From contig LYSZ01000001.1 of the NCBI GenBank assembly GCA_001657385.1, positions 434,001 to 498,000 on the forward strand: a stretch of DNA of 64,000 nt, given 5' to 3'. Both the position numbers and the translations under genes were made by a program. Numbering within the stretch: position 1 is the stretch's first letter; every line of letters starts with the position of its first letter. The stretch is from Parvularcula sp. BBD 1991-13 (GTDB lineage Bacteria > Pseudomonadota > Alphaproteobacteria > Caulobacterales > Parvularculaceae). The notes beneath the pieces were generated by a model. It did no database searches. It had not been told where the DNA came from and worked only from the letters and a program-made list of their open reading frames with translations. Shown here piece by piece: positions 2,862 through 40,003 of this stretch.

Positions 2862-3215
2862 GTGGCGCACGAGGCGAGTGAAACCATAACCTTCGGGGAT
2901 TTCCAGAAAGTCGACATTCGCGTCGGCACGGTGGTTGAGGCCGAGCCGTTTCCCGAGGCGAGAAAGCCGGCCATCAAGCTGCGGATCGATTTCGGTCCGC
3001 AGACGGGCGTGAAGAAATCCTCCGCGCAGATCACCGAGCACTATGCGCCTGAAGCGCTCAAGGGCCGCCAGGTGATGGCGGTGGTCAACTTTCCCCCGCG
3101 CCAGATCGGTCCGTTCATGTCGGAAGTTCTCACCCTCGGCTTTCTCGATGCGGACGGCGCGGTGGTGCTGGCGGCGCTCGACAAGCCCGTCCCCAATGGC
3201 GCGCGGCTGATGTAG
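2862..3215 (+). CDS. csaA: CsaA-type tRNA-binding domain protein (export chaperone)
   Basis: A 117-residue protein made of a single EMAP-II/tRNA-binding OB-fold domain. The family signature can be followed: [18 protein letters not shown] at the N-terminus, then [23 protein letters not shown] and a C-terminal PNGARLM. CsaA proteins of about 110 residues are homodimers that bind tRNA-like or unfolded protein ligands and have been linked to secretion. The start is taken as GTG at 2862 because it follows a purine-rich ribosome-binding site and gives the family length. In-frame sequence upstream overlaps the transporter gene and does not look like this family. The next gene begins four bases after the stop, suggesting co-transcription. 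Confidence 0.9.
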
Positions 3216-3219
3216 CGTC

Positions 3220-3834
3220 ATGGCCGGGCGTTCCAGACCAGAAGCCCTGACGCCGTTGGCCCGGAAGATCCGTGCCTGCCGCATCTGCGTCGAGCGCCCG
3301 CTCGGCGCGCCCCTGCCGCATGAGCCGCGGCCGGTGTTCCAGGCCGCGAAGGGCGCGCGCCTCGCGATTTTCGGACAGGCGCCGGGCAAGCGCGTGCATG
3401 AAAGCGGGCGGCCCTTCACCGATCCTTCCGGCGACCGCCTGCGGGCGTGGATGGGGATCGACGACGCCGCGTTCTACGACCCGCGCCGGGTCGCGATCGT
3501 TCCCATGGGCTTTTGCTTTCCCGGCTATGACGCCAAGGGAAGCGACCTGCCGCCGCGCAAGGAATGCGCCGAGGCGTGGCGGGCGCGTCTCATGGCGGCG
3601 CTGCCCGGGGTTGAAACCGCAATCCTGGTGGGCGGGTATGCGCAGAAATGGCATCTCGGCGAAAGGGCGGGGAAATCGATCACCGAAACCGTGTCGCAAT
3701 GGCGCGATCATGCGCCGCGGTTTTTTCCCACGCCGCACCCGTCATGGCGCAACAACGCCTGGCTGAAAAAGAACCCATGGTTCGAACGCGACCTGCTGCC
3801 TGTGCTGCGCGCGCAGGTCAAGGCGCTGATGTAA
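3220..3834 (+). CDS. Uracil-DNA glycosylase family protein (family 4-like)
   Basis: Member of the UDG superfamily (COG1573 type), 204 residues. The uracil-pocket motif GQAPGKRVHESG is at 52-63 and the second active-site motif, PHPSWRN, lies near residue 172. Four cysteines, C20, C23, C99 and C116, fall in the order and approximate spacing of the [4Fe-4S] ligands of family-4/5 enzymes (CRIC near the N-terminus, C-FPG...PPRKEC in the middle), so an iron-sulfur form is likely. The pocket motif is APGKR, not the GEAPG-type sequence of well-studied enzymes, so substrate preference may differ. It starts four bases after csaA. Confidence 0.85.
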   Translation: MAGRSRPEALTPLARKIRACRICVERPLGAPLPHEPRPVFQAAKGARLAIFGQAPGKRVHESGRPFTDPSGDRLRAWMGIDDAAFYDPRRVAIVPMGFCFPGYDAKGSDLPPRKECAEAWRARLMAALPGVETAILVGGYAQKWHLGERAGKSITETVSQWRDHAPRFFPTPHPSWRNNAWLKKNPWFERDLLPVLRAQVKALM

Positions 3835-3841
3835 CCTGCAT

Positions 3842-4795
3842 CTAGCGCCGGTAATGCCACCAGTCGTCGATGCGTGCAAAGATGATGTAGGCGACTGCCG
3901 CCAGGATCAGGATCAGGAGCGCGAACTGGATCTGCGACTGCACCGCGCCCGTGTCGATGGTCGGCGCAGGTTCGGGTTCCGCCACACCTTCGACCGCGCT
4001 ATCGCCGCCGGCGTCCGCGTCCCCCGCCGGCGCCTCTTCCCCGGCGTCGTCAGCGGGCGCGCCGTCCGCCGCGTCCGACGGCGGCGCGACTTCCTCCGCG
4101 CCGGGATCTTCCTCTGTTTCCGGATCGACCAGGGGGGCGTTGGCCGGCGCCGCGCCGCCATTGGCTTCCATGGTTTCCAGTTCCTCGGCGCTTTCACGGC
4201 CCATGTTCGAGGCCGCCGCGCCGGCGCCCCCGGCGACCGCCGCCCCCTGCACCGTACGGCTGCCGGCGAGGCTGTCCCGGCGGGGCGGGTCCTCGAACGG
4301 GGTTGTGCGGCTGTTCTCGTCGATCTGGCGTCCGTCGCTGACGATCGGCGGGTTGACGGGGGTCAGGAAAAGGGCGCGCTCTGCCGCGCGGCGCCGGGTC
4401 AGCCCCGTCACCTCGCGCAGAACCCCGCCGACGGTCGCCTTGTTCCACCAGGTCAGCGCGTCCGCGGCGCCGATGCGGTCGCCGCTGTTGAGCCGGCGCC
4501 GCGCCGTCGAGCGGCGGAACGCGTCTATCCCCACATTGTAAACGAAGCTGACAAGCGCATCGAATTCGTTCTGGTTCATGTCGACGTTGACCAGCCGTCC
4601 CACCGCCTGTTCCCGGGGCTTGAGATCGCGCTGCAGGAGCGCCTCGGCTTCCTGTTCGGTGATGCGCATCCCGGGCTTGGCGGTTTCGATATGGCCGTAG
4701 CCGATGGTCCAAATCCCGGCGATATCCTGATAGGCCTCAAGTTCGAGACCCTCAAAGCGCTTGATCAAATCAATGCCGTTCTGGGAAGTTCTCAC
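3842..4795 (-). CDS. Tail-anchored GH24 lysozyme (phage-type muramidase)
   Basis: Peptidoglycan muramidase of the T4-lysozyme family with an unusual build, 317 residues. The N-terminal 150 or so form the GH24 domain. The catalytic triad E15, D24 and T30 has the exact E-8-D-5-T spacing of T4 lysozyme (RFEGLELEAYQD, then WTIGYGH). A long Ala/Pro/Glu/Asp-rich linker (about 165-285) follows, then one C-terminal hydrophobic helix (FALLILILAAVAYIIFA) ending in basic and aromatic residues. There is no N-terminal signal peptide, so insertion would place the catalytic domain either in the cytoplasm or, with some export route, in the periplasm. No phage genes surround it, so a domesticated cell-wall enzyme is more likely than a prophage endolysin. 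It converges with the UDG gene seven bases away. Confidence 0.88.
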   Translation of the reverse strand: MRTSQNGIDLIKRFEGLELEAYQDIAGIWTIGYGHIETAKPGMRITEQEAEALLQRDLKPREQAVGRLVNVDMNQNEFDALVSFVYNVGIDAFRRSTARRRLNSGDRIGAADALTWWNKATVGGVLREVTGLTRRRAAERALFLTPVNPPIVSDGRQIDENSRTTPFEDPPRRDSLAGSRTVQGAAVAGGAGAAASNMGRESAEELETMEANGGAAPANAPLVDPETEEDPGAEEVAPPSDAADGAPADDAGEEAPAGDADAGGDSAVEGVAEPEPAPTIDTGAVQSQIQFALLILILAAVAYIIFARIDDWWHYRR

Positions 4796-5158
4796 CGCGA
4801 CGCTCCACCATAGACCCCATCATGGGATAAACTTTAAACATAATTGTGGCGAAAAAGGTAGGATCGCCGGTGTGAACTTGCCGTGAAAGGCCGCCTTCAG
4901 AGGGGCCGTCCCGGGGCGCGCCGCCGTCGCCGGGGCGATACCGGCCTGACCGGTCGGCGCAAGGCCGGCTTGTGTTGCAGCAAGGCAACATACGCGGCGA
5001 TTACGGCGCCCTGCGCCGGGGATGGCGCGACGATCGCCGCGCCAGGGGGCGGGCGCAATCCTGGTGTGATCCGGGTGCAATCCGGGCGCGCCGCCGGGGC
5101 CGCGTTGAGGTTTGTTTTCGTTAAAATAATTGTGACAAGAATTGGCGAAAAACCAGTC
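4796..5158. other. Intergenic spacer with an 11-bp repeat
   Basis: Divergent spacer between the lysozyme and dksA. At 5055-5087 an 11-bp unit is repeated three times (gcaatcctggt, gtgatccgggt, gcaatccgggc). Around 5101-5150 the base composition turns AT-rich, as expected for a promoter region. No convincing coding frame was found on either strand. Confidence 0.5.
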
Positions 5159-5186
5159 TTGTGAGCGGCGGGCCGCGCCGTTATAC
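5159..5186 (+). promoter_or_regulatory. Candidate dksA promoter
   Basis: TTGTGA (5159-5164) and TTATAC (5181-5186) are separated by 16 bases and end 60 bases upstream of the dksA start. The match to the sigma-70 consensus is fair. It was found by inspection only. Confidence 0.35.
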
Positions 5187-5246
5187 AGGCCGCGCGCCGT
5201 TCCGGCGACGGCGAGCAAAAGGCGTTGTGTAACCTGGGAGTGAACA

Positions 5247-5663
5247 ATGTCAGCGTCAGAAATCGACGAATATCGTCCGTCTGAAGACGAACCGTTCATG
5301 AACGATCGTCAGAAAGAATATTTCAAACGCAAGCTGTTGGCGTGGAAAAACGATATCCTGCGTGAAAGTCAGGGCACGCTGAACAATCTACAGGAAGACG
5401 ATAATCATTTGCCGGACATCGCCGACCGCGCGTCCAGCGAAACCGAGAAGGCGCTGGAGCTGCGCACCCGCGACCGCCAGCGCAAGCTGATTTCGAAGAT
5501 CGATTCGGCCCTGCGCCGCATTGAGACAGGCGAATACGGCTATTGCGAGGAAACCGGCGAGCCCATCGGCCTGCGCCGCCTTGACGCGCGGCCGATCGCG
5601 ACGCTGTCCCTTGAGGCCCAGGAGCGCCACGAGCGCGAGGAGCGCGTCTACAAGGACGATTAA
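5247..5663 (+). CDS. dksA: DksA-family RNA polymerase-binding transcription factor, zinc-finger cysteines mostly lost
   Basis: DksA enters the RNA polymerase secondary channel and, with ppGpp, tunes rRNA and amino-acid promoters. This 138-residue protein has the coiled-coil with the tip DIADRAS (D60 and A62 correspond to the essential Asp and Ala of the E. coli tip). It also has the C-terminal globular region with YGYCEETGEPIG and the end RHEREERVYKDD. Of the four zinc-binding cysteines of E. coli DksA only one is left (C100); the other positions are T103, S121 and A124. Single-Cys forms are known among alphaproteobacteria and in DksA2-type proteins, and they keep function without zinc. The start at 5247 follows a GGGAG site. 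It lies alone between two promoter regions. Confidence 0.93.
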   Translation: MSASEIDEYRPSEDEPFMNDRQKEYFKRKLLAWKNDILRESQGTLNNLQEDDNHLPDIADRASSETEKALELRTRDRQRKLISKIDSALRRIETGEYGYCEETGEPIGLRRLDARPIATLSLEAQERHEREERVYKDD

Positions 5664-5731
5664 CCTTTCGGCCGGTTCATCAGCATAGCGGCGCGGTTTT
5701 CCCGGTTCTGCAAAACTGGTCGAAAATTCAC

Positions 5732-5760
5732 TTGTCGTTGTTCTTCCCAGCTTTTATATA
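5732..5760 (+). promoter_or_regulatory. Candidate cold-shock gene promoter
   Basis: TTGTCG (5732-5737) and TATATA (5755-5760) are spaced by 17 bases. Transcription from here would give an untranslated leader of about 185 bases before the cold-shock gene, in keeping with the long structured leaders of cold-shock mRNAs. The leader carries several short complementary stretches but no leader motif I can name. Confidence 0.45.
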
Positions 5761-5953
5761 TGTGTGGCAATTTCTGTTTTGGACCGCTGACGATCGCGGT
5801 CGGCGCTACGCCTGCTACGCTACTCGCCTACTAAGCTATTCGACGTTTCCAAGACTCAAGGTTGCGCTACCGGACGCCGGCATTTCGCCGGGTCCTCAAC
5901 GGCCGGGCGCGGGTTCGCCCAAGTCCGGCGGCCATGTCTAAAGGAGACGAACG

Positions 5954-6160
5954 ATGGCGACAGGTACTGTTAAATGGTTTAACGGCCAAAAAGGTTTCGG
6001 TTTCATTCAGCCGGATGAAGGCGGCAAGGACGTATTCGTGCATATTTCTGCGGTCGAGCGCGCGGGCATGTCCTCGCTCGTCGAAGGACAGAAAGTGTCC
6101 TACGAACTCGCGACCGAGCGCGGCAAAACCGCCGCCGCCAACCTTCAGGCCGTCAGCTAA
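5954..6160 (+). CDS. cspA: Cold-shock protein, CspA family
   Basis: A 68-residue single cold-shock domain that binds single-stranded RNA and DNA and melts RNA secondary structure. Both RNA-binding motifs are intact: RNP1 KGFGFIQ at about 13-19 and RNP2 VFVHIS at about 27-32. The length is exactly that of the family. The ribosome-binding site AAGGAGACGA lies just before the ATG. A strong rho-independent terminator follows 24 bases after the stop, so it is a single-gene unit. Which of several paralogous csp genes it is cannot be decided from one window. Confidence 0.96.
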
Positions 6161-6184
6161 GACAGCTTTCGACCGACTGCGGAA

Positions 6185-6213
6185 CGGCGCCCCGACGGGG
6201 CGCCGTTTTTTTT
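6185..6213 (+). terminator. Rho-independent terminator of the cold-shock gene
   Basis: A nine-base GC stem (cggcgcccc with ggggcgccg) closes on a three-base loop and is followed directly by eight Ts. The stretch just after it (6214-6238) repeats the pattern cgccgtttttt + gcgcgtcg a second time, like a partial duplication of the terminator tail. Confidence 0.92.
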
Positions 6214-6540
6214 GCGCGTCGCCGTTTTTTGCGCGTCGCGGACTTTTATAGTTTATATACGGAACTTCTGTACAAAGAGCGATAGCGCGATTGCGGCGCG
6301 TCGCCATCGCCCGCCAGCGGCCGTTGCGCGCCCGGCGGGGCGCTCGTCTTCCGGCGCGGCGGGGCGCAAAATCCCGTTTCCTCGCTTTTATGGGATTTTC
6401 CAGAAAAGGCGGCGTTCGGTGACGGCGCCGGGGCCGGGCATGGAGCAGGCATGAACCTTTCGGGCTGCGCCGCCGGCGGGCCCCTGCCGAAAGCTTGAAA
6501 AAACGGCTTGAAAGCCCTGCTGACTCGGCTATGAAGGACC
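6214..6540. other. Intergenic spacer before rlmE
   Basis: About 330 bases without a supported gene. It holds the duplicated T-tract noted with the terminator, an AT-rich patch (6240-6285) that may carry the rlmE promoter, and GC-rich sequence after it. A GAAGGA ribosome-binding site precedes the rlmE start. Confidence 0.5.
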
Positions 6541-8941
<2,401 letters not shown>

Positions 8942-9325
8942 ATGACGCTGGAGGAATACAACGCCTACTGCAAAACCCTTCCCGCGTCCTTCAAGGTGGT
9001 GCAGTGGCGGGGCGCGCATGTGTGGAAGGTTGGCGTTCCGGACGCAGCGAAAGTGTTCGCCATCGGCGGCCGGAACGAGGAGGGGGGAACGGCGATCACG
9101 TTCAAGACGTCCGATCTCGCCTATGAAATCCTGAAGGACATGCCCGGTCTGCGGCCCGCGCCCTATCTCGCCTCGCGCGGGATGAAATGGATACAGCGCT
9201 ATGACGAAGCTGGGCTTTCCGACGATGAGCTTCGCGACTACCTGAAGGAAAGTCATCATATCGTGTCGCGCGGCCTTACGAAAGGATTGCAGCGGCGGCT
9301 TGGCCTCGACCGGGAGGCGTCATGA
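8942..9325 (+). CDS. MmcQ/YjbR family protein
   Basis: A 127-residue protein of the MmcQ/YjbR family, a small alpha/beta fold with a CyaY-like topology, often described as DNA-binding but of unproved function. The family pattern is visible: an N-terminal helix EEYNAYCKTLP, WKVG and FAIGG strands, ITFKTSDLAYEIL, then PAPYLASRGMKWIQ and a C-terminal helix pair with SHHIVSRGLTK. It starts at the base after the guaB stop and overlaps the next gene by four bases (ATGA), so it is embedded in the gua operon. The context suggests co-expression only. Confidence 0.85.
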   Translation: MTLEEYNAYCKTLPASFKVVQWRGAHVWKVGVPDAAKVFAIGGRNEEGGTAITFKTSDLAYEILKDMPGLRPAPYLASRGMKWIQRYDEAGLSDDELRDYLKESHHIVSRGLTKGLQRRLGLDREAS

Positions 9326-10650
9326 GAGACGCCGGCAGGTTGAGCGCGGCGATCGAGATCCTTGACGATTTCGCCGCGCGGCGGGTCCCTCTGAAGACCG
9401 CGATCGCCGACTGGGGGCGCGGCAACCGCTATGCGGGCGCGAAAGACCGGGCCTGGATATCGGGCCTGTGTCTTGACGCCCTGCGTCGGCGCCATTCGCT
9501 TGCGGCGGTCATGGGCGCGGATACGGGCCGGGCGCTGGCGCTCGCGGCGTTCCGGTTCCTGTGGCGCGCGCCCATGGACGCGCTTGGCGACGTCGCCGCC
9601 GAGGAGCCGCACGGCCCCGGCGCGCTCAGCGAGGACGAGCGCGCGCGGCTGACCGGCGACGCGCATGGGCGTCCCGACGCGCTTTCGGGCCGGCCGCCCC
9701 ATGTCCTCGGCGATTACCCGGAATGGCTCGGCCCGCAGATCGAGCGGGCGTTCGGCGGCGCGGCGGTCGCCGTCATGGGCGCCTTTGCGCGGCGCGCGGA
9801 TGTGGACCTGCGGATCAACACCCTCAAGACCGGTCCGGAAAAGGCGCTGGCGGCGCTGAAATCCGTCGATGCGCAGGCGGTTCCCGTACTGACGACCGCG
9901 GCGCGCATCGCCGCCCCCGACCCTTCGCGCAAGGCCCCGGCGGTCACTGTCATTCCCGCCTTCAACAAGGGCTGGGTCGAGGTCCAGGACCTCGGCAGTC
10001 AGATCGCGGCGGCGGCGGCCGGCGACGTCAGGGGCGCCCAGGTCCTCGATTATTGCGCCGGAGGCGGGGGCAAGACGCTGGCGCTGGCGGCGATGATGGA
10101 GAATACGGGCCAACTCTACGCCTATGATCGCGACGCGCGGCGGCTGAAGCCGCTCTATCACCGCGCCGGGCGGGCTGGCGTGCGCAATCTTCAGGTGCGC
10201 TCGCCCGCCGGGGCGGAGGGGCTCGACGACTTGCAAGCGAGGATGGACGTCGTCTTCGTCGATGCGCCGTGCACGGGCAGCGGCACCTGGCGGCGTCATC
10301 CGGATACGAAATGGCGCCTCACGCCGCAGCAGCTCCGGCGGCGCATGGATGAACAGGACGCGGTCCTGCGTGAGGCGGCCCGTTTCGTCAGGCCCGGCGG
10401 GCGCCTGATCTGGGTCACGTGCTCGTTCCTGATGGAGGAAAACGAAGACCGGCTTGCGGCGTTTCTGGCGGCGCATCCAGGGTTTCGGCAGGGCGCCGCG
10501 CTCGACGGGATCGCGGCGAGCGGCCTCCTCGCCGGCGACGGCGCCGGGCTGCTGGCCCGGTGCGTGACGCCGGCGGGATGCCTCCGTCTGACGCCGGACG
10601 TGCTGCGCGCCGACGGATTTTTTGTTTCTGTACTGACGCGGGAAGGATAG
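9322..10650 (+). CDS. RsmB/NOP-family RNA (cytosine-C5)-methyltransferase
   Basis: SAM-dependent m5C methyltransferase acting on RNA, probably 16S rRNA. The 442-residue protein has an N-terminal helical region resembling the NusB-like part of RsmB and a C-terminal Rossmann domain. Motif [18 protein letters not shown] lies at about 238-254, motif [17 protein letters not shown] at about 314-328 (the cysteine that releases product) and motif [13 protein letters not shown] at about 366-376 (the nucleophilic cysteine). Both cysteines are present, so it should be active. Whether it modifies C967 like E. coli RsmB cannot be shown. It overlaps the yjbR-like gene and ends 10 bases before guaA. Confidence 0.88.
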
Positions 10651-30373: not shown

Positions 30374-30418
30374 GGTCCACAGCCATTTGGTCCACAGCCA
30401 TTTGGTCTCCAGCCATCC
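30374..30418. repeat. Tandem repeat, 15-bp unit x 3, next to a start codon
   Basis: Units ggtccacagccattt, ggtccacagccattt and ggtctccagccatcc are directly joined and end 20 bases upstream of the ATG at 30439. They therefore lie in the probable leader of that gene's message. The period is 15, not 16 as in the three larger arrays. Confidence 0.85.
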
Positions 30419-30438
30419 GGTCCCAGAAAGGGCGCGCC

Positions 30439-30924
30439 ATGTCCGAACTCATGAAGCTTTACCGCAAGTCTGATCCGGCGCGCATTCCGCATCTTCGCTC
30501 CGCCCTCGACCGACAGGTGAACACCCTCGGTCAGAGTTCGGCCCCGGAGCAGGTCGCCTTCATGCGCGAGCTGATCGAAAACCCCGTCATGCGCCGCGAG
30601 TTCGAACGCCGGCCCGGCAAGGTCGCGTCGGAAAGCGGCGTCGTTCTCGACCGGAAAACCGTCAAGCAGATCACCAGCAGCATACTTTTCGATTATGCGG
30701 TGCCGGCGGAGTTGCGCGAACGCCTCGATGACGACGGCTTGAAAAACCTGGAGGAGTTGCGCAACGCCACCATGCCGACCCTTGGCGAGGCGACGCCGCA
30801 GGAGCCGAGCGGAAGCGCCGCCGCCGTCGCCGCCGGCGCGGCGGTCGTCAGCGCCGTCGCCGCCGTGGTCACCGCCGTTGTCGCCGTCTGGAACGCGGCG
30901 AGGGGGTGGGACGGCTCGGGCTGA
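30439..30924 (+). CDS. Candidate precursor protein with Ala/Val-rich C-terminal tail
   Basis: A 161-residue protein I do not recognise. Residues 1-115 are hydrophilic and helical; FMRELIENPVMRREFERRPG (41-60) resembles the leader part of Nif11-type or nitrile-hydratase-type precursor peptides, in which a short acidic/basic helix is bound by the modifying enzyme. Residues 125-161 switch abruptly to a low-complexity tail with AAVVSAVAAVVTAVVAV, then WNAARGWDGSG at the end. No signal peptide is seen. The tail could be a core peptide to be modified and cut off, or a single membrane helix. The radical SAM gene pair follows on the same strand 400 bases further on, which favours the first. The start follows an AAAGG site. 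Confidence 0.65.
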   Translation: MSELMKLYRKSDPARIPHLRSALDRQVNTLGQSSAPEQVAFMRELIENPVMRREFERRPGKVASESGVVLDRKTVKQITSSILFDYAVPAELRERLDDDGLKNLEELRNATMPTLGEATPQEPSGSAAAVAAGAAVVSAVAAVVTAVVAVWNAARGWDGSG

Positions 30925-31324
30925 GGCGGAGACCATCGCATTCGATCCGGAAGGATTCCCGGCGCGCGGTTCGAACAGGACCCCCCGGACAGAGAACCGG
31001 AGAGGGAAAAAGGTCAAAACGCGGCGGAGCAAAAAAGACCGATCGATTGAAGTGCGGCCGGGCCTCAAGACTCCCAAACAAATCCCGAGACAGCCAGGCC
31101 CCAAGACAGGTAAATCACGAAGCAGTTAAACCACGAGACAGGTAAAACACAAGACAGCGAACCGCCGGTACAGGCAAAATCTCTACACAGACGGCGATTA
31201 CAATGGAATACAATGGAAGCGCTGGGAAAAATTCAAAAAACCGGAGCGGAAGGAAAGGCGGCGAAACCGGAATTGACGGATGATCGGCAGATGACGGCGA
31301 TTGGCGAATGACGATGGGCGCCCC
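30925..31324. other. Spacer between candidate precursor and radical SAM gene
   Basis: This 400-bp stretch contains the 16-bp repeat array at 31088-31167 and an AT-richer tail that may hold a separate promoter for the radical SAM genes. No gene-like frame with a ribosome-binding site was found. Confidence 0.5.
31088..31167. repeat. Tandem repeat, 16-bp unit x 5, degenerate
   Basis: Five joined units of exactly 16 bases: agacagccaggcccca, agacaggtaaatcacg, aagcagttaaaccacg, agacaggtaaaacaca and agacagcgaaccgccg. The central three share agacaggtaaa or a close variant. It lies in the spacer between the precursor-like gene and the radical SAM gene. Confidence 0.8.
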
Positions 31325-32419
31325 ATGAAGGCCGGCGGGCATTTCGGCGACACGGTCGATACGGATCCCATCGCGCGGCAGCTTCTCCAGTTGAGCGCGT
31401 TCCCCGTGTTTTACAACGGGCTGGTCCTGATCACGACCACGCGCTGCAACGCGCAATGCGGCATGTGCTATCAAAGCGCCGGCCCGAAAGGCAGCCCGCT
31501 GATGGGCAAGGCGCGGCTTGATCTTCCCGTTCTCGAACGCGCCGTGCGCGAGGCCGCCGGGATCGACGCGGTCGCCCCGCGTTTTCACCTCGCCGGCGGT
31601 GAGGCGTTCATGGATATGGACGCGTGCCTGCGGCTGATCCGCTGCGCGCGCGACGCCGGTTACGAGCTGGTCTCCGCGACCACCAATGTGTTCTGGGCGA
31701 AAGACATTGCGAACGCGCGCAAGGTCGCCGAGGCGTGCGTCGAGGCTGGTCTCGACCTTTTCGAAATCAGTTGGGACCATTGGCACAAACCCTGGATCGC
31801 GCCGGCATGCATCGACAACTGCATCACGGTTTGCGCCGAAGTCGGCATCGAGACAAATCTCCGTCTCCTGACAACCCGCAACCATCGCATTCCCGAAGCC
31901 CTGGGCGAGCTCGACCCTGCGGCGCGGGCGAAGGCTTCCGTCATCACCTCGGGCCCGGTCACCGGCTCCGGACGCGGCGCCGCGCTGGGCGATAACGAGC
32001 TGTTCGTCGGCGCGAGCCCGATCGACGGCGGCTGCCATTCGATGCTCCATCTTACCATTAATCCGACCGGGGAGGTTATGCCCTGTTGCGCCGGCATCGA
32101 TCAGACCGGTCAGAGTTTTTTCGGCAACGTCAAGGAGGAATCCCTTTTTGATATCGTCGACCGGATGCAGCACTCGGCGCTGCTGCGGATCCTGGTTTTC
32201 GACGGGGTGGCGAGCTTTCTGCCGATCCTTGAAGAAGCGGGGCTTTCGCCGGGAAAAGATTTCGTCGGCATGTGTGACCTGTGCTGGTCGGTTTTCGCCG
32301 ACAATGACCGCACCAGGGCCATCGAGGACCATCTTGACCGGCTGCGCGTCAAGGCGCTGAAGCAACTGGTGGCGGACATGGAAAACGCCCGGCCGCATGA
32401 GGGTCTTGTCGATGCCTGA
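31325..32419 (+). CDS. Radical SAM enzyme with SPASM-like C-terminus
   Basis: A 364-residue radical SAM protein. The [4Fe-4S] motif C-x3-C-x2-C is at C41, C45 and C48 (TRCNAQCGMCYQ), followed by the SAM-binding HLAGGEAFMD region. The C-terminal part has further cysteines in GGCHSMLHLTINPTGEVMPCC and MCDLCWSVF, the pattern of the SPASM/twitch auxiliary cluster domains used by peptide-modifying enzymes. The ATG at 31325 is preferred; a TTG at 31301 would add eight residues. It overlaps the next gene by eight bases. With a leader-like precursor just upstream and proteases downstream, a peptide maturase role is the best guess, though not shown. Confidence 0.85.
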   Translation: MKAGGHFGDTVDTDPIARQLLQLSAFPVFYNGLVLITTTRCNAQCGMCYQSAGPKGSPLMGKARLDLPVLERAVREAAGIDAVAPRFHLAGGEAFMDMDACLRLIRCARDAGYELVSATTNVFWAKDIANARKVAEACVEAGLDLFEISWDHWHKPWIAPACIDNCITVCAEVGIETNLRLLTTRNHRIPEALGELDPAARAKASVITSGPVTGSGRGAALGDNELFVGASPIDGGCHSMLHLTINPTGEVMPCCAGIDQTGQSFFGNVKEESLFDIVDRMQHSALLRILVFDGVASFLPILEEAGLSPGKDFVGMCDLCWSVFADNDRTRAIEDHLDRLRVKALKQLVADMENARPHEGLVDA

Positions 32420-33350
32420 CGGCGCCGGCGTACTCCTCGCCGACCGCAAGGCGCCGCTCCTGTCGCGGTTCAAAGCCGTATATGTCTGTCTCGGGCCCGG
32501 ACCTCGCCCGGCGCTGTCCGCGCTTGACCGCTGGCTGGCGTTTTTCATGGCCTGGTATCGCGACCGGGTCGGTCAGGCGACCGTCGCCGGCGTTTTTCCC
32601 AATCATTTCTTCGGCCCGAGCGTCACGTTTCTGGGGCCGGCGCCGGTGCGCTGCGCCGACGACCTTGCGGCTTTGTTTCGCGCCTGCCGCCGGGCGGGGC
32701 TTGCCCCCCATATCGGCGTTGACGCGATCGAGGCGGCGGGCGCGGCGGCGCGGATCATGCGCCTGGCGCAGGCCGGTCTCGCCCAGGCCGATCTGCACTT
32801 GAACCGCCGTCCCGACAAGGCCGAAGCCGGCGCCGCGCGGGCCCTGATGCTCGACCTTCAATGTGCGTCGGTGAAGCTTCGGCTCTTCGGCGACAGCGTT
32901 GACTGGCTTTCCACGGGCGCCCTGGATCTGGAGGCGCTGAATTCGGATTTCATCTCGATTTATCCGCTTGCTGAGCGAACGGTCACGCCGCGAAGCGCGC
33001 GCCCCTGCGCGCAGCGTTTCGGCGTCTGGATCGATCCCGACGGCGATATCTATCCCTGCGCCGGGCTGATGGGCGTCGACGCTTTTCGCATCGGCCGGGT
33101 CGCGGATGCGGAGGGCGGATCCGCGCCGCTCGACCTTTCCCGTATCGATGGGATCGGCCAATGGGCGAAGTGCGGGCCGAGCCTTCCCGAAGGCGAGGTC
33201 CATGAGGCGCCGCCGGGTGAAACGGGGCGGCCCTTGCCGCTGATTTGCCGGCGGCACAGGGCGCTGGAGCTGGCGCGCCGCGACGCCGGCGTTGCAGCCG
33301 CCGATGCCGTAATGGGCGGCCGCGCCCGGCAGGTCTCTTCTCCTGAATGA
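32412..33350 (+). CDS. SPASM-like partner protein without the radical SAM cysteines
   Basis: A 312-residue protein that looks like the C-terminal half of a radical SAM/SPASM enzyme. It carries PCAQRFGVWIDPDGDIYPCAGLMG near residue 200, with the C...G-x-x-I/W-x-P-D-G-x-I/V-Y-P-C layout of a SPASM-type cluster. The N-terminal part, where C-x3-C-x2-C should be, has none. Two more isolated cysteines follow. It is translationally coupled to the radical SAM gene (start inside its 3' end), so the two probably work as a complex, one active and one catalytically degenerate. The start ATG at 32412 is chosen because GAGGG precedes it; 32397 is possible. It ends 57 bases from the convergent operon. Confidence 0.7.
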   Translation: MPDGAGVLLADRKAPLLSRFKAVYVCLGPGPRPALSALDRWLAFFMAWYRDRVGQATVAGVFPNHFFGPSVTFLGPAPVRCADDLAALFRACRRAGLAPHIGVDAIEAAGAAARIMRLAQAGLAQADLHLNRRPDKAEAGAARALMLDLQCASVKLRLFGDSVDWLSTGALDLEALNSDFISIYPLAERTVTPRSARPCAQRFGVWIDPDGDIYPCAGLMGVDAFRIGRVADAEGGSAPLDLSRIDGIGQWAKCGPSLPEGEVHEAPPGETGRPLPLICRRHRALELARRDAGVAAADAVMGGRARQVSSPE

Positions 33351-33406
33351 AAAACATGCGCGGATAAAACCTATGCGGACTGATTATGCGCTGCGCCGCG
33401 CAGGCG

Positions 33407-34045
33407 CTATCGTTTCGCGTGCGCCCAGGCGTCAAGGGCCGAGGACATCCGCAGCCTGTTCGGTCCGGCGGGCAGTTTTAGGAAAAAGGGGCGGGCGCTG
33501 AAGGGACCGCGGCAGGCCACAAGATGCCCGCCGGCGCGGCGGCAGCGGAGAGGGCCGCCATGCGGGGTCTCGATTGCGTCGCGATGGCGTGGGGATTCGA
33601 GAACCCAGCTTGTGTAGACGAAATCCGGGTTCGACGCGGCGGCCGCTTCGATGTCGGCCTGCTGATGGTGCGCCGGATCGATCCTCACGCCGAGGCGGTA
33701 CAGCCCATACCATTGTAGCCAGATCATCACGCGCTCAAGGGCGTTCAGGGTGCGGCGCGATCCCGGCCCGGCGGCGATGCGGATGTCGAGATCGTTCGCG
33801 GTCCCGTCGCCGTCGAGCGCGGACCCGACGACGTAAGCCGACCAGCCCTTGCATAGCGGGTGATCGCGCCAAGCGTCGGCAAGGCGCGATAGGTGCGCGG
33901 CGTTCGGCCGGGAAAGGCCGAGACCGCGGGCTTCGCACATTTCCCGCGTCGGCGCGGTGAACCATATCCGCGCCTCGCGCGTCTTGCGCGCGATGCGCTC
34001 GATCGTCGCCATGTCGCGATGAATGTCCGACGGGGCGTCGCTCAC
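33407..34045 (-). CDS. Nucleotidyltransferase-fold protein, last gene of the protease operon
   Basis: A 212-residue protein with the minimal nucleotidyltransferase signature: VVGSALDGDGTANDLDIRI (about 72-90) has the G-S motif at 74-75 and the D-x-D metal pair at D85/D87. Typical members transfer nucleotides to small molecules, proteins or RNA; the substrate is unknown. The rest is helical with several Trp and Cys residues. The GTG start shares GTGA with the stop of the trypsin-like gene, so the two are co-translated. In this context it might adenylylate or otherwise tag the peptide or a protease, but this is only a guess. Confidence 0.7.
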   Translation of the reverse strand: MSDAPSDIHRDMATIERIARKTREARIWFTAPTREMCEARGLGLSRPNAAHLSRLADAWRDHPLCKGWSAYVVGSALDGDGTANDLDIRIAAGPGSRRTLNALERVMIWLQWYGLYRLGVRIDPAHHQQADIEAAAASNPDFVYTSWVLESPRHRDAIETPHGGPLRCRRAGGHLVACRGPFSARPFFLKLPAGPNRLRMSSALDAWAHAKR

Positions 34046-34782
34046 AAAAACACCTCCGCGTCGAAAGCCGCTGCGGCCATGTCCAGGCGACAGGCGAGGG
34101 CGTAGGGCCGTCCGGTGCGCGCGTCGCGGCCGCCGGCGACATGAATCCCGACCGCGATGTTGCGGGCGCGGTCGCGCCAAAGGCCGCCGGAATCGCCGGG
34201 AGCGCAAAGACGATAGCCGGTGCGCCCCGGAACCGGGTCGAGCCGGAAGCCTTCGAAGGCGACGGTGCGCGCGCCGTGGCGCACCGAAAAGACGCCGACA
34301 TCGGCCACCTGTCCGTCGGTCCTTGCGGAGCGCCGGCCCTCAAGACAGAGGACCCGTCCGCGCGCCGGCGCGTCGAGACGGGCCGGCATGTGCGGCAGGG
34401 CGGTCTCAATGCGGCGGGCGAGGCCGGGGGACAGGGCGACCAGCGCCGCATCGCCCTCGGCGCCGAACAGGATGTGTGCGATCGATCCGATCTCGACCGG
34501 CGGTCTGTCGCGCCGTCCGCGAACCCATATCGCCGCCCCCAACGCACGCCCGGGCGCGCCTCCAATCGCGCATCCGGGCCCGGCGAGGGCGTGGGCCGAG
34601 CCAATCGCGGCGAGACGGCCCGTCCCTTTCTCCCGTGCGAGGCAGGCGATGCTGGACCAGTTGTCCAGAGGCGCGCGCGCAACGGCGCATCCGGGGCGCA
34701 GGAACGGACCGCCGCCCCGCGCGGCGCCGCCGCGGCGGCCGTCTGCGTTTGCGGCGGCGATATCCCCGCGCCCGTTCTTCAT
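34042..34782 (-). CDS. Trypsin-like serine protease (chymotrypsin fold)
   Basis: A 246-residue protease with the full S1 triad: His64 in IGSAHAL, Asp111 in GDAALVAL and Ser198 in CAPGDSGGLW. The oxyanion residues around G-D-S-G-G and the later GIHVAGG strand fit the family. There is no clear signal peptide, so it may act in the cytoplasm or be exported by another route. It shares ATGA with the M23 peptidase stop and GTGA with the next start, the middle of a three-gene coupled operon. In peptide loci such a protease often removes the leader; that role fits the convergent radical SAM/precursor genes but is inference. Confidence 0.85.
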   Translation of the reverse strand: MKNGRGDIAAANADGRRGGAARGGGPFLRPGCAVARAPLDNWSSIACLAREKGTGRLAAIGSAHALAGPGCAIGGAPGRALGAAIWVRGRRDRPPVEIGSIAHILFGAEGDAALVALSPGLARRIETALPHMPARLDAPARGRVLCLEGRRSARTDGQVADVGVFSVRHGARTVAFEGFRLDPVPGRTGYRLCAPGDSGGLWRDRARNIAVGIHVAGGRDARTGRPYALACRLDMAAAAFDAEVFL

Positions 34783-35762
34783 GGGCGCCGGGTCGCCCGC
34801 AGGACGGCGTTCGGCGCGCAACGGCGCCCGTCGATTGTCATCGGCCGCGGGTCGCCGTCGAAAGGCGCATGGGCGGGCGCGGCGTCTTGTACATGCACAT
34901 GCAGGTGCGGTTCGGTCGAGTTGCCGGAATTGCCGACGGCGCCGACGCGCTCGCCCTCGACAACCGTCTGGCCGGCCCGCACCCGAACCGAGCCCTTTTG
35001 CAGATGAGCGAGCAGGAGGCTCGCGTCCGGCCGGCTCGACGGCTGAAGCCAGATATGATTGCCCGGCGGCGGATCGTTGCGCCGTTCGCCGGGGGCGCGG
35101 TCTTCTAAACCGTCTTCGACGGATAGAACCGTCCCGTCGCAAGGGGCGTGCACGGCGCGCCCGTAGATCTCGAAGTCGTCCAGCCGGCGCGGCCAGATCC
35201 GCGACGAATGCCGGCCCCACCTGTTGACGCCGATCAGGTCGGCGCCGAGCCCCTGGCCGCGCAACCGGCGAAGCGACGGATCGCGCAGCACCTGGGCGTG
35301 CTGATTGCGCGCCGGGGCGCTTCCCGCGGCGGCGAGGACGTAAGCGCCGGATTGAAACGGCAACGCGATATCCAGCGTGGCGCCCGCGCTTTCGCGCCGG
35401 TCGAAAAAGCCTCTCAGCCGCAGGACAAGATAACCGAGCACCGCGAAGGTGATGACGAGCGGCGCCCAGGAAACCGCGTCCTCGGGCCATGGCGGCGCGG
35501 GGCGATGGGCGATCAGCGCCGCGAGCGTTGCGACGGCGAAGAGCGGCGGGATCGCGCGGCGCCACCACAGGCTTGTCATCCACCATCCCGGCGACAACAG
35601 GGCGGCGATCAGGGCGGCGCCCGCGGCGCCGACGCGGGCGGCGAACTCCGCCCAACTCGCCGGCGGCAGCATCATCCACGCCATGATCAGCAGCGGCGCG
35701 ACGATCTGGGCGGCGACGGCCGCCAGCTTCAATAGCGTTGACGCTTTGAAAAGCCCTTGCAT
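34779..35762 (-). CDS. Membrane-anchored M23-type peptidase
   Basis: A 327-residue protein. The first 120 residues contain about four hydrophobic segments (KLAAVAAQIVAPLLIMAWMM, AGAALIAALL, AIPPLFAVATLAALIA and APLVITFAVLGYLVL), so it is an inner-membrane protein with a periplasmic C-terminal domain. That domain is M23/LytM-like: DDFEIYGRAVHAPCDGTVL, then LLLAHLQKGSV and GNSGNSTEPHLHVHV, where HLHVH gives zinc ligands. The first ligand pair is less certain (His155 and Asp175 are candidates). M23 enzymes cut peptidoglycan peptides, and some act on bioactive peptides. It is the first gene of the coupled operon. Confidence 0.82.
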   Translation of the reverse strand: MQGLFKASTLLKLAAVAAQIVAPLLIMAWMMLPPASWAEFAARVGAAGAALIAALLSPGWWMTSLWWRRAIPPLFAVATLAALIAHRPAPPWPEDAVSWAPLVITFAVLGYLVLRLRGFFDRRESAGATLDIALPFQSGAYVLAAAGSAPARNQHAQVLRDPSLRRLRGQGLGADLIGVNRWGRHSSRIWPRRLDDFEIYGRAVHAPCDGTVLSVEDGLEDRAPGERRNDPPPGNHIWLQPSSRPDASLLLAHLQKGSVRVRAGQTVVEGERVGAVGNSGNSTEPHLHVHVQDAAPAHAPFDGDPRPMTIDGRRCAPNAVLRATRRP

Positions 35763-35966: not shown

Positions 35967-38417
35967 CTAAGCGACCGCCTCCGACAGGCTGGCGAGTGAC
36001 GGCGCCTTGACCGGCTCCCAGTCGAGGTCGCCGACATAGCGCCAGGCGAGCCGGCCTTCTCCGTCCATGGCGAAAAGGTGCAGCCAGCGATTGTCGAAAA
36101 GGGCGCGTACGGATTCGTGACGCCGGAGGATGTCCGTCATCGCCTCGCGCGGGGCCTCGATGCAGACCGACAGGCGAAGCGGGTCGTGTACGTATCGCTC
36201 TCCGTCGTGGACGGACTGCCGCGGGAGGCCGGCGCGCAACAGCCCGCCATTGCCCTCGACCACGCCGACGCCGCCGACGACGTTATGCAACAGCTTGTCG
36301 CCCGAGCCGAACGCGTCCGGCGCAACGGTGGAGCCGTAATATTGCAGGCTGATCCAGCTTGCGACGACCACGGGGGCGGTCATGATCAGCTCCAGGACGG
36401 CGAAGCCGTTCTCGCTGTCCTCTTTCCACTGGTAATCGTGCAGGAAGGCGCGGCCCTCAAGGTTGCGGCCGGTCGTCCGCTCACGGGGCGCGGCGATGAA
36501 CGCCTGACAGCCGGCGAGCGCCCATTCCGGCCGCACTTCGGCCCAGTTGCGCGCGCGTTCGGCGATGTCGCCCTCGTCCGCCGCCCGCGGCAGGCGCAAG
36601 GCCCGCTCGCTCCGGGTCGCGCGTCCCGCCGCGTCCAGCCAGCGCCGCGTCCGGCGCAGATCGTCGGCGTGGTCCGCCGTGCGACAGTCCCGGTCGTAAA
36701 GGGTGACGGCGTCCGTCGTCGTATCGTGCAGCGCGGCGACGAAGAGCGTGTCGTCGGGCACGTCGATGCCGCGCGCCGCCAGCCCCGCGCGCACGGCCCC
36801 GTCGTTGAGAAGCTGGGCCAGAAGGCGCGCGTTCGCCTCGCCCGAATAGCCGCCGCAGGCGCCGCAATGCAGGCCGCTGGCATGGGGGTTGTTGACCACG
36901 TTCGCGCCATGTCCCGCAAGCAGGACCACCCGGGCGAAGCCCCGGGTCAGCGACATGGCCCGCAGCACGGTTTCGGCGGATGCGGTTTTCGTCTCAAGGT
37001 CCAGCTCGGGATCGAAACGCGGCGCCGGATCGTTGGGGATCGCCGCCGGGTTCAGGCCGAGCGCATCGCGCGCGAGCCTGGCGACATAGACCGGCCCCAT
37101 GGCCTCCACGAACGCGAAGGAGGAGACCGCCGCCAGCTTGAAGCGGCCCCAGGCCCTTTTGGCGCGCGCCTTGTACCGCGCGGCGAGGTCGTCGGCCCGG
37201 TCGCTCTCGTCGCCGGAAGACGAAGTCACCGTCGGGTTCAGCAGCACCGGCAGGCGCAACTCCTCGATGTCGGAGGCGAAGCGGCGGTGCTTGGCGAAAA
37301 CGCCAAAGAAGCCCGCGAAACCGAGAGTCTGGATCGACGGGTCCGTCGCTTCGAGGGCGCGGCGAAACACTTCCGAGCGCACATCGATGCAGAACGCCGC
37401 CTGCAGGGCCGGACGGCTTTCCGCGGCGCGCGGCGCCGGCGCGGCGGCGAGCGTTTCGGCGAGGCGGCGCTGGGCGGCGCGCTCGGCCGCTTCCTGCAGG
37501 ATCTCGTCGACGACGTCGTCCCGGTCGGGCGCGGCCGGAACCTCCCGGGCCTTGCAGACGGCGGCCCAGTCGCCGCCGATGGCGGTTTCGTACTGCGTGA
37601 ACAGCGCCTCCTCCCATAGCAGCCGGATGGCGAGAAAATCGGCGATGGTCGCGTCTTCTCCGCCCGCAAGTTCGGCGCGCCAGCGTTCGTATCGGGCGTA
37701 TTGGGACCAGCCGCCGAGGGAAAACAGGAGCTGGTGGAAGTAACTTTCAAGCGCCGTCTCGCCGACGCCGAGCCGGTCGACGGCGCGCGCCGCCGCCGCC
37801 AGCGGGTCCGCAGGCGCATCGGCGACAAAGGCGGCGAACCCTTTCAGACCCATGATCTCCGGCGTCCGGTCATGGACGGCGAAGCCGCGCCAGGCGGCCC
37901 AGGCGCCGTCGGCCCTCGGCGCCGCCCACAGGGCCTGGCCCCGGTCGATATAGCCGCCCGCCCAGACGCCGAAACGGTCGGCGACGATCCCCGGCCAGTC
38001 GACCGCCCGCGCCGTCGTCGCCAGATCCGTCGCCGCCAGATCCGCCACCGTCGGCAACGCGGCGCGCGCGGCGCGGGGCGCGCTCGCCGCCGCCTTCAGG
38101 GCGTCAAGATCGGCGGGCTTGTCCGCATGGGACGAGGCGGCGAGGGCGGCGGCGAGATCCTCATCGGCGATGTCGCCGGCGGCGATGCGGTCCTGACGCC
38201 AGCGCCGCGGCATCGTTACGGGAACGTCCGCGATGCGCGCCAGCCGGGCGCCGGTCGCGGCGAGCGTCTGCGTCGTCTGTCCGAGAAACGGGTTGACCGC
38301 GACATGGGAGGCGAGGGGCCACAGCGGCGGGATCTGGCCGGCGGCGGCCGCGGCGGCGGCCTCCACGGCGGAAGCAGCGACCGGCTTGTTCTTGGCGTCG
38401 AGGGGCATGGCGTTCAT
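35967..38417 (-). CDS. dabA: DabA, inorganic-carbon accumulation subunit (DUF2309)
   Basis: Zinc-dependent subunit of the DAB complex, which hydrates CO2 vectorially and accumulates bicarbonate in the cytoplasm. The 816-residue protein has the expected metal and active-site residues: C343 and D345 in [10 protein letters not shown]503 in [17 protein letters not shown] and C518 in LHCGACGG. The His-to-Cys distance of 15 equals that reported for the chemolithotroph protein. Length also matches. It follows dabB by 14 bases, so the pair forms an operon. Beta-carbonic-anhydrase-like chemistry is the known role of the family; its use in this organism (autotrophy or carbon supply for anaplerosis) cannot be told. 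Confidence 0.95.
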
Positions 38418-38431
38418 TTCCTATTCCACCG

Positions 38432-40003
38432 TCAGGATGATCGGCGGACTGACCAGTTGCCGACCAGGCGGTCGAAAACGGCGTTGGCGTAAAGCCCGTT
38501 GGCGAGATGCGCGCGCAGGCCCGCGGCGATCGGATGCCCGGCCCAGAGCGGGACTACCGACTGCGCCGCGGCGACGGCGCCGAAGCTGACCACGGCCAGC
38601 GCCAACAGCGCCCATTCCATGATCCCCGGCGCCGGCGTCGCCGGCAGCGCGTCGGCGGTCAGCCGTTCGGCGCCCGTCTGAAGCGCGAAATAACTCACCG
38701 ACGCGGCCACCGAGTAAAGCGTGGTGCGCCAGGTGAGCGCGCGCGGCGCGGCGTCGGCGAGGCCCTGGGCGAGCAGGTAGGCGACGCCGAAAATCAGGAT
38801 CGCGCCGAGGGCGATCGCCTGCGGCGACTTCGTCTGGAAGTCGAAGGCGAACCCGATTCCCGCGTAAATCATCAGTGCAAGAATGAATGCGCGCGTCACC
38901 GCCCAGCCGCTGGGAACCGCGATCGGCCCCGGCCTGCGGACTCCCGCCACCAGATCGACGGCGCCGCCCGAGGCGAGAAAGGCGTGCGCCTTGTAGAGCG
39001 AATGGGCGACGATATGGAGCAGCGCCAGCGGGAACAGCGCCAGCCCGCACTGCATGGTCATGAACCCCATCTGGGCGATGGTCGACCAGGCGAGCGAGCT
39101 TTTGACCGCCGACTGGCTGAGCATGGCGAGCCCGCCGACGAGCGCCGTGAACCCGCCGATCACCACGAGCGCGGCCTGCGCGCCGGGTGCGAGCAGCATG
39201 ACGTCGGCGAAGCGGATCAGCAGAAAGCCGCCTGCGTTGACGACCCCCGCATGCAGCAGCGCCGAGACGGGCGTCGGCGTTTCCATGACCTCGGTGAGCC
39301 AGCCATGGGCCGGGAACTGGGCGGATTTGAGGATGGCCGCGAGGGCTAGGAGCGCGGCGGCCCAGCCCGTTCCGGCGGGCGCCGTCCCCTCGCGCGCGGC
39401 GGCGAGGATGGCCGCGATGTCGAGCGCGCCGTAGCCGCTGAAGAGCAGCGCCGCCGCCGCGATCAGGGCCGCGTCGCCAAGACGCGCGACGATGAATTTC
39501 TTGCGCGCCGCGCGCACCGCCTGCACGCGGTGGGGGTAGAACAGGAGCAGCCGGTGAAGGCTCAGGCTGGTGGCGATCCAGGCGAGCGAAAAATGAACGA
39601 GGTTGCCGGCCTGGACCAGGAGCAGCACGGTCGCCAGCGTCGTCGCCATCCAGCCGAGAAACGCGCCCTGCCGCGGCTCGCCGTCGAGATAGGAGGCCGA
39701 ATAGCGCAGCACGATCCAGCCGATGAAGGCGACCAGCACCAGCATGACCGCGCTGACCACGTCGAGCCGCACGGACAGACCGATCGCCGCGGCGTCAAGG
39801 GTCGGCCCCAGCACCGGACTCGTTGCAGGGCCGAGCCGGATCAGCAGCACCGCCGACGCGACAGTCGCCGCGAGCGCGGCCAGTGCGGCGGCTTCGACGA
39901 GCTTCGGCGCGCGCTTCGGGCGCGGGCCGTGCGCCGCGAAGGCGATCGCCGCCGCGAGCAACAGGATCGCGGGCGCGATCAGGGGGGTGAAAGCGTAAGC
40001 CAT
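38432..40003 (-). CDS. dabB: DabB, proton-conducting membrane subunit (NuoL/MrpA-like)
   Basis: A 523-residue polytopic protein of the proton-conducting membrane transporter family, which energises DabA by letting cations back in. About 14 hydrophobic segments are seen. The family's central region reads LAAILKSAQFPAHGWLTEVMETPTPVSALLHAGVVNAGGFLLIRF, where the K and H residues of the antiporter channel lie, followed by SSLAWSTIAQMGFM. It is the first gene of the dabBA operon and is divergent from the LysR regulator, with an inverted repeat in the 104-bp spacer. Confidence 0.95.
   Translation of the reverse strand: MAYAFTPLIAPAILLLAAAIAFAAHGPRPKRAPKLVEAAALAALAATVASAVLLIRLGPATSPVLGPTLDAAAIGLSVRLDVVSAVMLVLVAFIGWIVLRYSASYLDGEPRQGAFLGWMATTLATVLLLVQAGNLVHFSLAWIATSLSLHRLLLFYPHRVQAVRAARKKFIVARLGDAALIAAAALLFSGYGALDIAAILAAAREGTAPAGTGWAAALLALAAILKSAQFPAHGWLTEVMETPTPVSALLHAGVVNAGGFLLIRFADVMLLAPGAQAALVVIGGFTALVGGLAMLSQSAVKSSLAWSTIAQMGFMTMQCGLALFPLALLHIVAHSLYKAHAFLASGGAVDLVAGVRRPGPIAVPSGWAVTRAFILALMIYAGIGFAFDFQTKSPQAIALGAILIFGVAYLLAQGLADAAPRALTWRTTLYSVAASVSYFALQTGAERLTADALPATPAPGIMEWALLALAVVSFGAVAAAQSVVPLWAGHPIAAGLRAHLANGLYANAVFDRLVGNWSVRRSS

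Follow-up and report, generated by a model that had tools for sequence, protein, structure and literature searches.

Two described groups of ribosomally synthesised and post-translationally modified peptides (RiPPs), the epipeptides and the proteusins, contain epimerised residues and are the nearest known systems to the locus presented here. The epipeptide set (yydFGHIJ, or epeXEPAB) comprises the precursor EpeX, the radical S-adenosylmethionine (SAM) epimerase EpeE, the M50 protease EpeP and an ATP-binding cassette (ABC) transporter (PMC8326336, PMC10885120). According to PMC8326336, valine and isoleucine are the EpeE substrates and Cys223 of EpeE is the proposed hydrogen donor, the mutation of which led to breakage of the peptide; the same source holds that the likeness between the core peptides of epipeptides and proteusins puts the evolution of these systems in question. 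We analysed a stretch of 64,000 nucleotides from Parvularcula sp. BBD 1991-13 (contig LYSZ01000001.1, positions 434,001 to 498,000), hereafter the window, which forms part of a 4.24-Mb genome. The window holds a six-gene locus in which a precursor-like protein (A), a radical SAM enzyme (B) and a radical-SAM-like partner (C) are encoded side by side, and which, on balance, probably makes an epimerised RiPP.

The cassette is best read as a variant of the epimerised RiPP systems, in which an EpeE-type enzyme would work with a pseudo-radical-SAM partner on a precursor with a long leader; that it modifies a peptide is what we infer from its genes. Within positions 30439-35762 the six genes form two convergent groups, 56 bases apart. 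The plus-strand group runs in the order A, B, C, with a B/C overlap of 23 bases. The minus-strand group encodes an M23 peptidase, a trypsin-like protein and a protein with a GSx..DxD motif. The initial annotation, which had proposed a peptide-modification locus from the sequence of these six genes, stated correctly that the three minus-strand genes share start and stop bases: the ATGA at 34779-34782 holds the M23 stop and the trypsin-like start, and the GTGA at 34042-34045 holds the trypsin-like stop and the start of the last gene. The features are listed below in window coordinates, with lengths in amino acids (aa) and the supporting evidence in brackets.

30374 to 30416, no strand: 15-bp repeat in 3 copies directly upstream of A, a candidate regulatory element (Tandem Repeats Finder, 2.9 copies, 92% matches)
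30439 to 30924, plus strand: A, precursor-like protein, 161 aa (relatives near B, predicted structure, hydropathy)
30808 to 30921, plus strand: putative core of A, aa 124-161, with a 7-residue repeat (21-bp repeat at 30815-30888, conservation of core order)
31325 to 32419, plus strand: B, EpeE/YydG-type radical SAM enzyme, 364 aa, from the ATG at 31325 (TIGR04078, PDB EpeE profile match, Cys255)
32397 to 33350, plus strand: C, pseudo-radical-SAM partner, 317 aa, alternative start at 32412 possible (invariant residues, Foldseek)
33407 to 34045, minus strand: nucleotidyltransferase-like protein, 212 aa, membership uncertain (GS-x..-DxD motif, GTGA overlap with the trypsin-like gene)
34042 to 34782, minus strand: trypsin-like serine protease, 246 aa (motifs, Trypsin_2 proteins in the Tropicibacter and Loktanella clusters)
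34779 to 35762, minus strand: M23 peptidase with N-terminal hydrophobic segments, 327 aa (PF01551, best foreign matches in A-B-C clusters)

The locus resembles the epipeptide loci in that B is a relative of EpeE with both cysteine motifs and the hydrogen-donor cysteine, the precursor gene lies beside that of the enzyme, a membrane metalloprotease is encoded, and valine and isoleucine would be the expected substrates (PMC8326336, PMC10885120). In contrast to the short epipeptide precursors (51 aa in a classical epipeptide locus on a Macrococcus plasmid), A is 161 aa long with a folded leader; a pseudo-radical-SAM partner is present; M23 and trypsin-like proteases stand where epipeptides have M50; and B scores far under the cut-off of the YydG model and belongs to its own clade. 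Neither an M50 protease nor ABC genes were found among the window genes read, which cover 26-40 kb, and A gave no NCBIfam match.

With the proteusins (polytheonamide, PoyA/PoyD, NHLP leaders) the locus shares a long leader, a hydrophobic Ala/Val-rich core and, presumably, epimerisation, the likeness of the leaders being weak. It differs from them in the enzyme, which is of the EpeE type with a SPASM-type region, not of the PoyD type with a RiPP recognition element (RRE); no RRE appeared in the Pfam and NCBIfam scans, which included no RRE-specific search. The HxsB/HxsC systems and the radical SAM trio of TIGR03913 also have two or more radical-SAM-like proteins per cassette, and a TIGR03913-like enzyme occurs in the Tropicibacter cluster described below; unlike theirs, the partner C lacks the radical SAM cysteines. 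A link to GDL-motif peptides through the Tropicibacter TIGR03913 match was considered and set aside: no such peptide model matched A, and PMC12114271 does not bear on the link. Among the titles and abstract openings listed in a literature search, with most subscription journals outside its coverage, none described this gene set, which does not establish its absence from print.

The evidence that carries the epimerised RiPP reading comes first from B. The radical SAM/SPASM-like character that the initial annotation had assigned to it was recovered with Pfam (Radical_SAM 1.9e-7, SPASM 1.5e-6), and a closer assignment is possible. Of the NCBIfam models, the window protein fitted TIGR04078, the YydG family peptide epimerase, best (E 2.4e-23). 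This model matched all 16 aligned B sequences, the window included, with a best E of 9e-36, and no other model listed was as strong. Searched against the PDB, a profile built from the 16 sequences retrieved the EpeE chains 8ai1-8ai6 (E 6.7e-38 to 5e-36), the only other match at 1e-5 being a tetraether synthase (4.8e-7). The radical SAM cysteines C41/C45/C48 are invariant in all 16, as are Cys237, 254, 317 and 320, which are the likely ligands of a second cluster; relative to the EpeE columns, 254, 317 and 320 are in register and 237 is one column off. The chains 8ai3 and 8ai4 are the C223A mutant of EpeE, in which an alanine replaces the second cysteine of PCC. Since this alanine aligns with the second cysteine of the invariant PCC of the B family, Cys255 of B corresponds to EpeE Cys223, and it too is invariant (16/16). 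By sequence, B is distantly related to EpeE/YydG peptide epimerases and has kept the cysteine proposed as hydrogen donor. In a phylogenetic tree the B clade was set apart from other YydG-like enzymes with 100/98 support, with a warning of long branches. A role in anti-phage defence was also considered and rejected; in PADLOC, B matched the viperin core no more than weakly (2.1e-6, 0.0013), and the other five proteins had no match.

The first good relative was found on a plasmid of Tropicibacter oceani (45% identity), where A, B, C, an APH-like kinase, a TIGR03913-like radical SAM enzyme, a Trypsin_2 peptidase, an M23 peptidase and a second A follow one another in line, and a second C and B lie beyond on the opposite strand. 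The extra radical SAM enzyme reached 431 bits against TIGR03913, the cut-off of which is 592; above its cut-off, the model matched in one of the 11 carriers searched, where the assembly is fragmented and the match lies on a different contig. A scan of genome contigs with three B sequences, limited in reach to what two short peptide patterns can pick up, yielded 15 loci. Two of these (L026 and L027) were dropped before counting, for weak radical SAM matches (E 1e-4 and 4e-4) and no A or C found, and the other 13 (L013-L025) are true relatives from the Bacillota, Elusimicrobiota, Pseudomonadota, Acidobacteriota, Fibrobacterota and Bacteroidota. Near-duplicates were kept (L017/L025, of one species, and L021/L022/L023). 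Together with the window and Tropicibacter, the 13 loci form a first set of 15 records.

A was located near B in all 15 records. Its alignment comprised 14 sequences from 13 records, and a profile of these found the remaining two, in L023 (a near copy of L022) and in L024 (on the opposite strand; E 4.8e-8 with the leader alone, searched against the collected loci). C was near B in the window, in Tropicibacter and in 13 of 13 scan loci, one or two genes away in L016 and L020. In a later set of four loci (L053-L056), used in no model and including two contigs of only about 7 kb, A again lay near B in every case (E 2.5e-10 to 4.7e-5 with the full profile, searched against these four loci alone). 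Wide occurrence of the radical SAM pair without such a precursor, which the initial annotation had named as a refutation of its reading, was not seen in either set.

The carriers are few. By profile at E <= 1e-60, B was present in 4 of 398 genomes of a phylum sample, the window's own included. At the same threshold, profile searches also found it in 2 of 394 genomes of the family of the Paenibacillus relative and 2 of 345 of that of the Loktanella relative, each count including the relative itself; the other member of the Loktanella count has the Tropicibacter coordinates. A single-sequence search for B at 1e-20 among 385 genomes of the class, and a search for C among 62 genomes of the family, returned the window's own genome only. 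These low counts across the genome samples mark the system as rare and patchy. A phage or viral origin was rejected, as no relative was found in viral contigs (queries P0002, A1) or in phages (two B proteins).

A, the precursor candidate, consists of a helical leader (about aa 25-111), a linker and an Ala/Val tail (aa 124-161). Its predicted structure (mean pLDDT 73) has helices between residues 3 and 111 and one long helix at 127-159. The tail has a Kyte-Doolittle value of 2.43 over 19 residues from aa 132, which is membrane-hydrophobic, and the 21-bp repeat in its DNA spans seven codons. The most A/V/I-rich 30-residue stretch among the 296 stop-to-stop frames of at least 100 aa in the window is that of A, in keeping with the earlier description of a 161-residue protein with leader-like helices and an Ala/Val tail; in the other loci, where this ranking covered 10 of the 13 from the contig scan, A came first in nine and second in the remaining one. 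The precursor gene is flanked by short tandem repeats, of 15 bp (30374-30416) and of 16 bp (31104-31157).

The motif Q..F..L......F..DP..[YF]...GV.LD is common to the leaders of most of the 14 aligned A rows. A conserved leader with a variable tail, the comparison that the initial annotation had proposed, is seen in the aligned relatives, and with the maturase in the same neighbourhood it follows the RiPP pattern. Nine hand-cut cores were compared, leaving out Fibrobacter, L024 and the second Tropicibacter A. The pattern AAVVxAxAAVV, counted by eye, is exact in six of them and near-exact in three, and the order of the residues is kept beyond composition (mean z 3.8 over 36 pairs): the observed identity was reached by at most 10 of 200 shuffles in 27 of the 36 pairs, and five of the nine pairs that failed involve L014.

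Searches against known families placed A in none that is unrelated. For the window protein, Pfam and NCBIfam offered nothing below E 0.4, and Foldseek with its model gave no match at E 0.001. The 14 relatives showed scattered weak matches, the best of Pfam being SseC (0.0042, in one of the 14), and the Os1348/NHLP RiPP clan NF038399 matched the leaders weakly in five of the 14 rows (best E 0.0023), with TIGR03793 in one (0.16). PDB profile matches to designed repeat proteins (7.8e-5, over 26 residues) and to picornavirus VP4 (0.019 and weaker) were judged short and chance-like, and were discarded. The last 60 residues contain at least one aromatic residue in all 14 rows and a cysteine in four; thioether (sactipeptide) chemistry was set aside on the absence of cysteine from the other 10. 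Two precursor variants were observed in the later set: one with Ala/Ser/Asp repeats of 11 residues (L055:7555-8112), and a pair of Ala/Ser-rich precursors, one upstream of B and one downstream of C (L053:3481-6837).

C was described earlier as a SPASM-like partner without radical SAM cysteines, which agrees with the present results: there is no CxxxCxxC, and the C-terminus is weakly SPASM-like (TIGR04085 E 0.0043 and 17.5 bits, where the cut-off is 27; Pfam SPASM 0.23). Cys204, Gly216, Cys221, Gly233, Gly260, Pro261, Cys284 and His287 are invariant in 16 C sequences. With the structure model (pLDDT 74.6, pTM 0.76), Foldseek retrieved SuiB, viperin, EpeE and BtrN (prob 0.99-1.00, TM about 0.4, E about 1e-3) in a mixed list topped by dihydrodipicolinate synthases and including other barrels; the model thus makes a radical-SAM-like barrel likely, though not proven. 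The C-family profile reaches the SPASM regions of known maturases (5wgg, 0.0024, 28 positions), and the PapB model matches C weakly (0.016). No match was found to the HxsB, HxsC or TIGR03913 models.

The PapB match bears on an alternative in which A is a RiPP precursor and B carries out a different radical reaction, such as a C-C or C-beta cross-link, a hydroxylation or a thioether linkage. B is far from EpeE (83 bits, against a cut-off of 300 bits for TIGR04078), the PapB model also matches five of the 16 B sequences, SuiB is among the structural matches of C, and the tails of A offer aromatic residues throughout and cysteine in some. However, the equivalent of Cys223 is invariant, the PDB matches of the B profile are EpeE and, weakly, the tetraether synthase and nothing else at E 1e-5, and the core residues that recur are Ala and Val. 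We therefore regard a different reaction as unlikely, and epimerisation as the better supported chemistry.

Among the convergent genes, the M23 peptidase is the best defined. It matches PF01551 (4e-12), its metal-site pattern is kept in five aligned relatives, and its hydrophobic segments span residues 7-34 and 95-116. Searches for kin of the M23 and trypsin-like proteins covered the genomes of 11 of the 15 records (without L021, L022, L023 and L025). The four best foreign M23 matches (3e-29, 8e-23, 3e-19 and 6e-17) are those of the L024, L020, Tropicibacter and L016 clusters, and all other matches listed were 2.8e-7 or weaker, so that the window protein looks like a member of a cassette subfamily and its belonging to the cassette is supported by sequence kinship. 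An M23 gene is present in five of the 15 first-set records (the window, Tropicibacter, L016, L020 and L024), not counting a 72-aa frame of L013 with a weak match (8.7e-4). A protease of the M23, trypsin-like or CAAX type was recognised in seven of the 15 (the window, L011, L014, L015, L016, L020 and L024) and in none of the others; L014 has a CAAX-type protease instead of M23, and two frames that by eye resemble secreted trypsins, downstream of L017 on the opposite strand, were left out of the counts. In the main text of a review of leader proteases, M23 does not occur (PMC10885120).

The trypsin-like protein and the product of the last gene gave no Pfam or NCBIfam match. The identities proposed earlier for the three genes therefore stand for M23, and for the other two go no further than motifs: SAHA/GDAAL/GDSGG in the trypsin-like protein and GS-x..-DxD, GSALDGDGTANDLD, in the last, which we take to be a trypsin-like and a nucleotidyltransferase signature. 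The trypsin-like proteins of the Tropicibacter and Loktanella clusters pass Pfam Trypsin_2. Kinship of the window protein to other clusters by sequence was looked for and not found, with no match better than E 0.18 among ten other B carriers, and its membership is supported by these analogues. The last gene had no counterpart at E 1e-5 among the L013-L027 frames, and its membership is uncertain, the evidence being adjacency and operon structure. In Tropicibacter, Paenibacillus, Vibrio and Roseibium, an APH-like kinase is encoded after C.

These differences between the three genes bear on the possibility that A-B-C is a RiPP cassette and the convergent operon an unrelated neighbour. The operon does lie on the opposite strand, M23 is absent from most other carriers, and the other two proteins gave no match in the searches just described. 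Against this, all four of the best foreign M23 matches are found at A-B-C clusters, clearly separated from the rest listed, and in Tropicibacter A-B-C and the genes of the trypsin-like and M23 proteases run in one line. An unrelated operon is thus very unlikely. The earlier proposal that all six genes belong together holds for A-B-C and M23, extends to the trypsin-like gene by analogy, and for the last gene is a matter of adjacency.

The proteases also raise the question of whether A is cut at all. It might stay whole, as a membrane-anchored modified protein with a structural or cofactor-like role, the proteases doing envelope work. M23 enzymes usually cut peptidoglycan, the weak NCBIfam matches of the window M23 are cell-wall endopeptidases, most loci have neither M23 nor trypsin-like genes, and the order of the core is conserved between phyla, unlike that of many antibiotic cores. 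On the other side stand the cluster-specific subfamily of M23, the conserved leader and variable tail across the whole set, and the Roseibium locus (L024), where the M23 gene shares a strand with A and an exporter: at 2895-9476 (-) are encoded the precursor, two unassigned proteins, an ABC exporter, HlyD and M23. An uncut A is accordingly quite unlikely, somewhat more so than a different reaction of B, and removal of the leader is preferred. The Roseibium ABC exporter matches type I secretion and NHLP-export models under their cut-offs, and B and C, with a kinase and a glycosyltransferase, are encoded divergently from the strand of precursor and exporter. In the acidobacterial L016, M23, a JmjC-type protein and a methyltransferase lie beside C, A and B (2755-5445, -), where they might provide extra tailoring.

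Several observations weigh against the epimerised RiPP reading. In addition to the low score of B against TIGR04078, the TrsS and viperin models match all 16 B sequences too, more weakly (best 6.5e-12 and 2.3e-10), and in an ungapped reading by eye Asp210 of EpeE is replaced by His242 in B and by Asn in most relatives. The likeness of A to NHLP leaders is far under the model cut-off and does not extend to the window protein. The tails vary in kind: those of L053-L055 are rich in Ala/Ser, not Ala/Val, with Asp repeats in L054 and L055, and those of Fibrobacter (L021-L023) are short or Ile/Val-Pro. The tail is modelled as a plain alpha helix, which D-residues would disturb. C is absent from one of the four later loci, the most distant (L056). 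With M23 in 5 of 15 and trypsin-like genes in 3 of 15 first-set records, and both in none of the four later loci, M23 is no core part; what ties the protease operon to A-B-C is the kinship of the M23 peptidase and the in-line genes of Tropicibacter. No exporter was found among the window genes read at 26-40 kb.

With these points weighed, the epimerised RiPP reading suggests the following mechanism. A would be the precursor, in which a membrane-hydrophobic Ala/Val core comes after a leader folded into helices. From selected residues of this core, most probably valines (or Ala), B would abstract the hydrogen at C-alpha, and Cys255 would return a hydrogen on the opposite face to give D-residues. 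C, with its SPASM-like Cys/Cys/Cys/His site, may assist B, probably as a holder of the leader, a priming factor or an electron carrier. At the membrane, the M23 peptidase, itself membrane-bound, and the trypsin-like protease would cut off the leader or trim the product. The product would most likely be membrane-active, as in epipeptides and polytheonamide.

More distant YydG-like enzymes on plasmids, for which eight of nine loci were read, fall outside the B clade. Long A/V/I-rich proteins, identified by eye, adjoin the enzyme in four of the eight: Halocatena, Eleftheria, Lactococcus and Collinsella. On a plasmid of the archaeon Halocatena salina, a 177-aa protein with an Ala/Val tail is encoded directly upstream of the YydG-like radical SAM enzyme (L040:3434-5035). 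Beside the Collinsella enzyme lies a DUF5969 protein (L043:3330-4055; leader-only profile E 0.003) with an Asn/Ala/Val/Ile stretch, NVVLNANAVTNANIILNANG, which resembles the polytheonamide core. Two Allochromatium loci and one of Rhizobium showed no A/V/I-rich neighbour in the genes read; on the Allochromatium plasmids (L012, L041) the distant YydG-like enzyme lies amid CRISPR genes, an EcsC-family gene and a 61-aa open reading frame.

The six genes are flanked on one side by genes of a PLD-like and an FMO-like protein; the other flank (window 35967-40003, -) encodes DabA and a proton-antiporter subunit; the subunit beside DabA we take to be DabB, its partner in inorganic carbon uptake. None of the flanking genes looks like a cassette member. 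A test of the dabA flank as an insertion site was uninformative because DabA itself is present in one of 28 genomes of the genus. A tRNA as integration site was discarded, as there is none in the window. The G+C content dips to about 0.54 around 29.5-30.5 kb.

A bolder interpretation, which we offer tentatively and hold to be less probable than epimerisation as such, is that the locus represents a new RiPP class. A two-component epimerase, of an EpeE-type enzyme and a pseudo-radical-SAM protein, would introduce D-valines into the conserved Ala/Val heptad core that a long helical leader carries, and the product would act as a membrane channel or disruptor. The class might be a missing link between epipeptides and proteusins, spread by horizontal transfer over at least six phyla, and might belong to a larger EpeE-like superfamily that includes the archaeal plasmid and the polytheonamide-like Collinsella protein. 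With the cassette, the list of RiPP parts would come to include a pseudo-radical-SAM partner as well as proteases of the M23 and trypsin-like kinds, and the 19 loci form a defined set in which to seek peptides with D-amino acids. As epipeptides and proteusins arrive at the same chemistry by means of unrelated enzymes, an A-B-C cassette that stands between both would make the question of their evolution testable.

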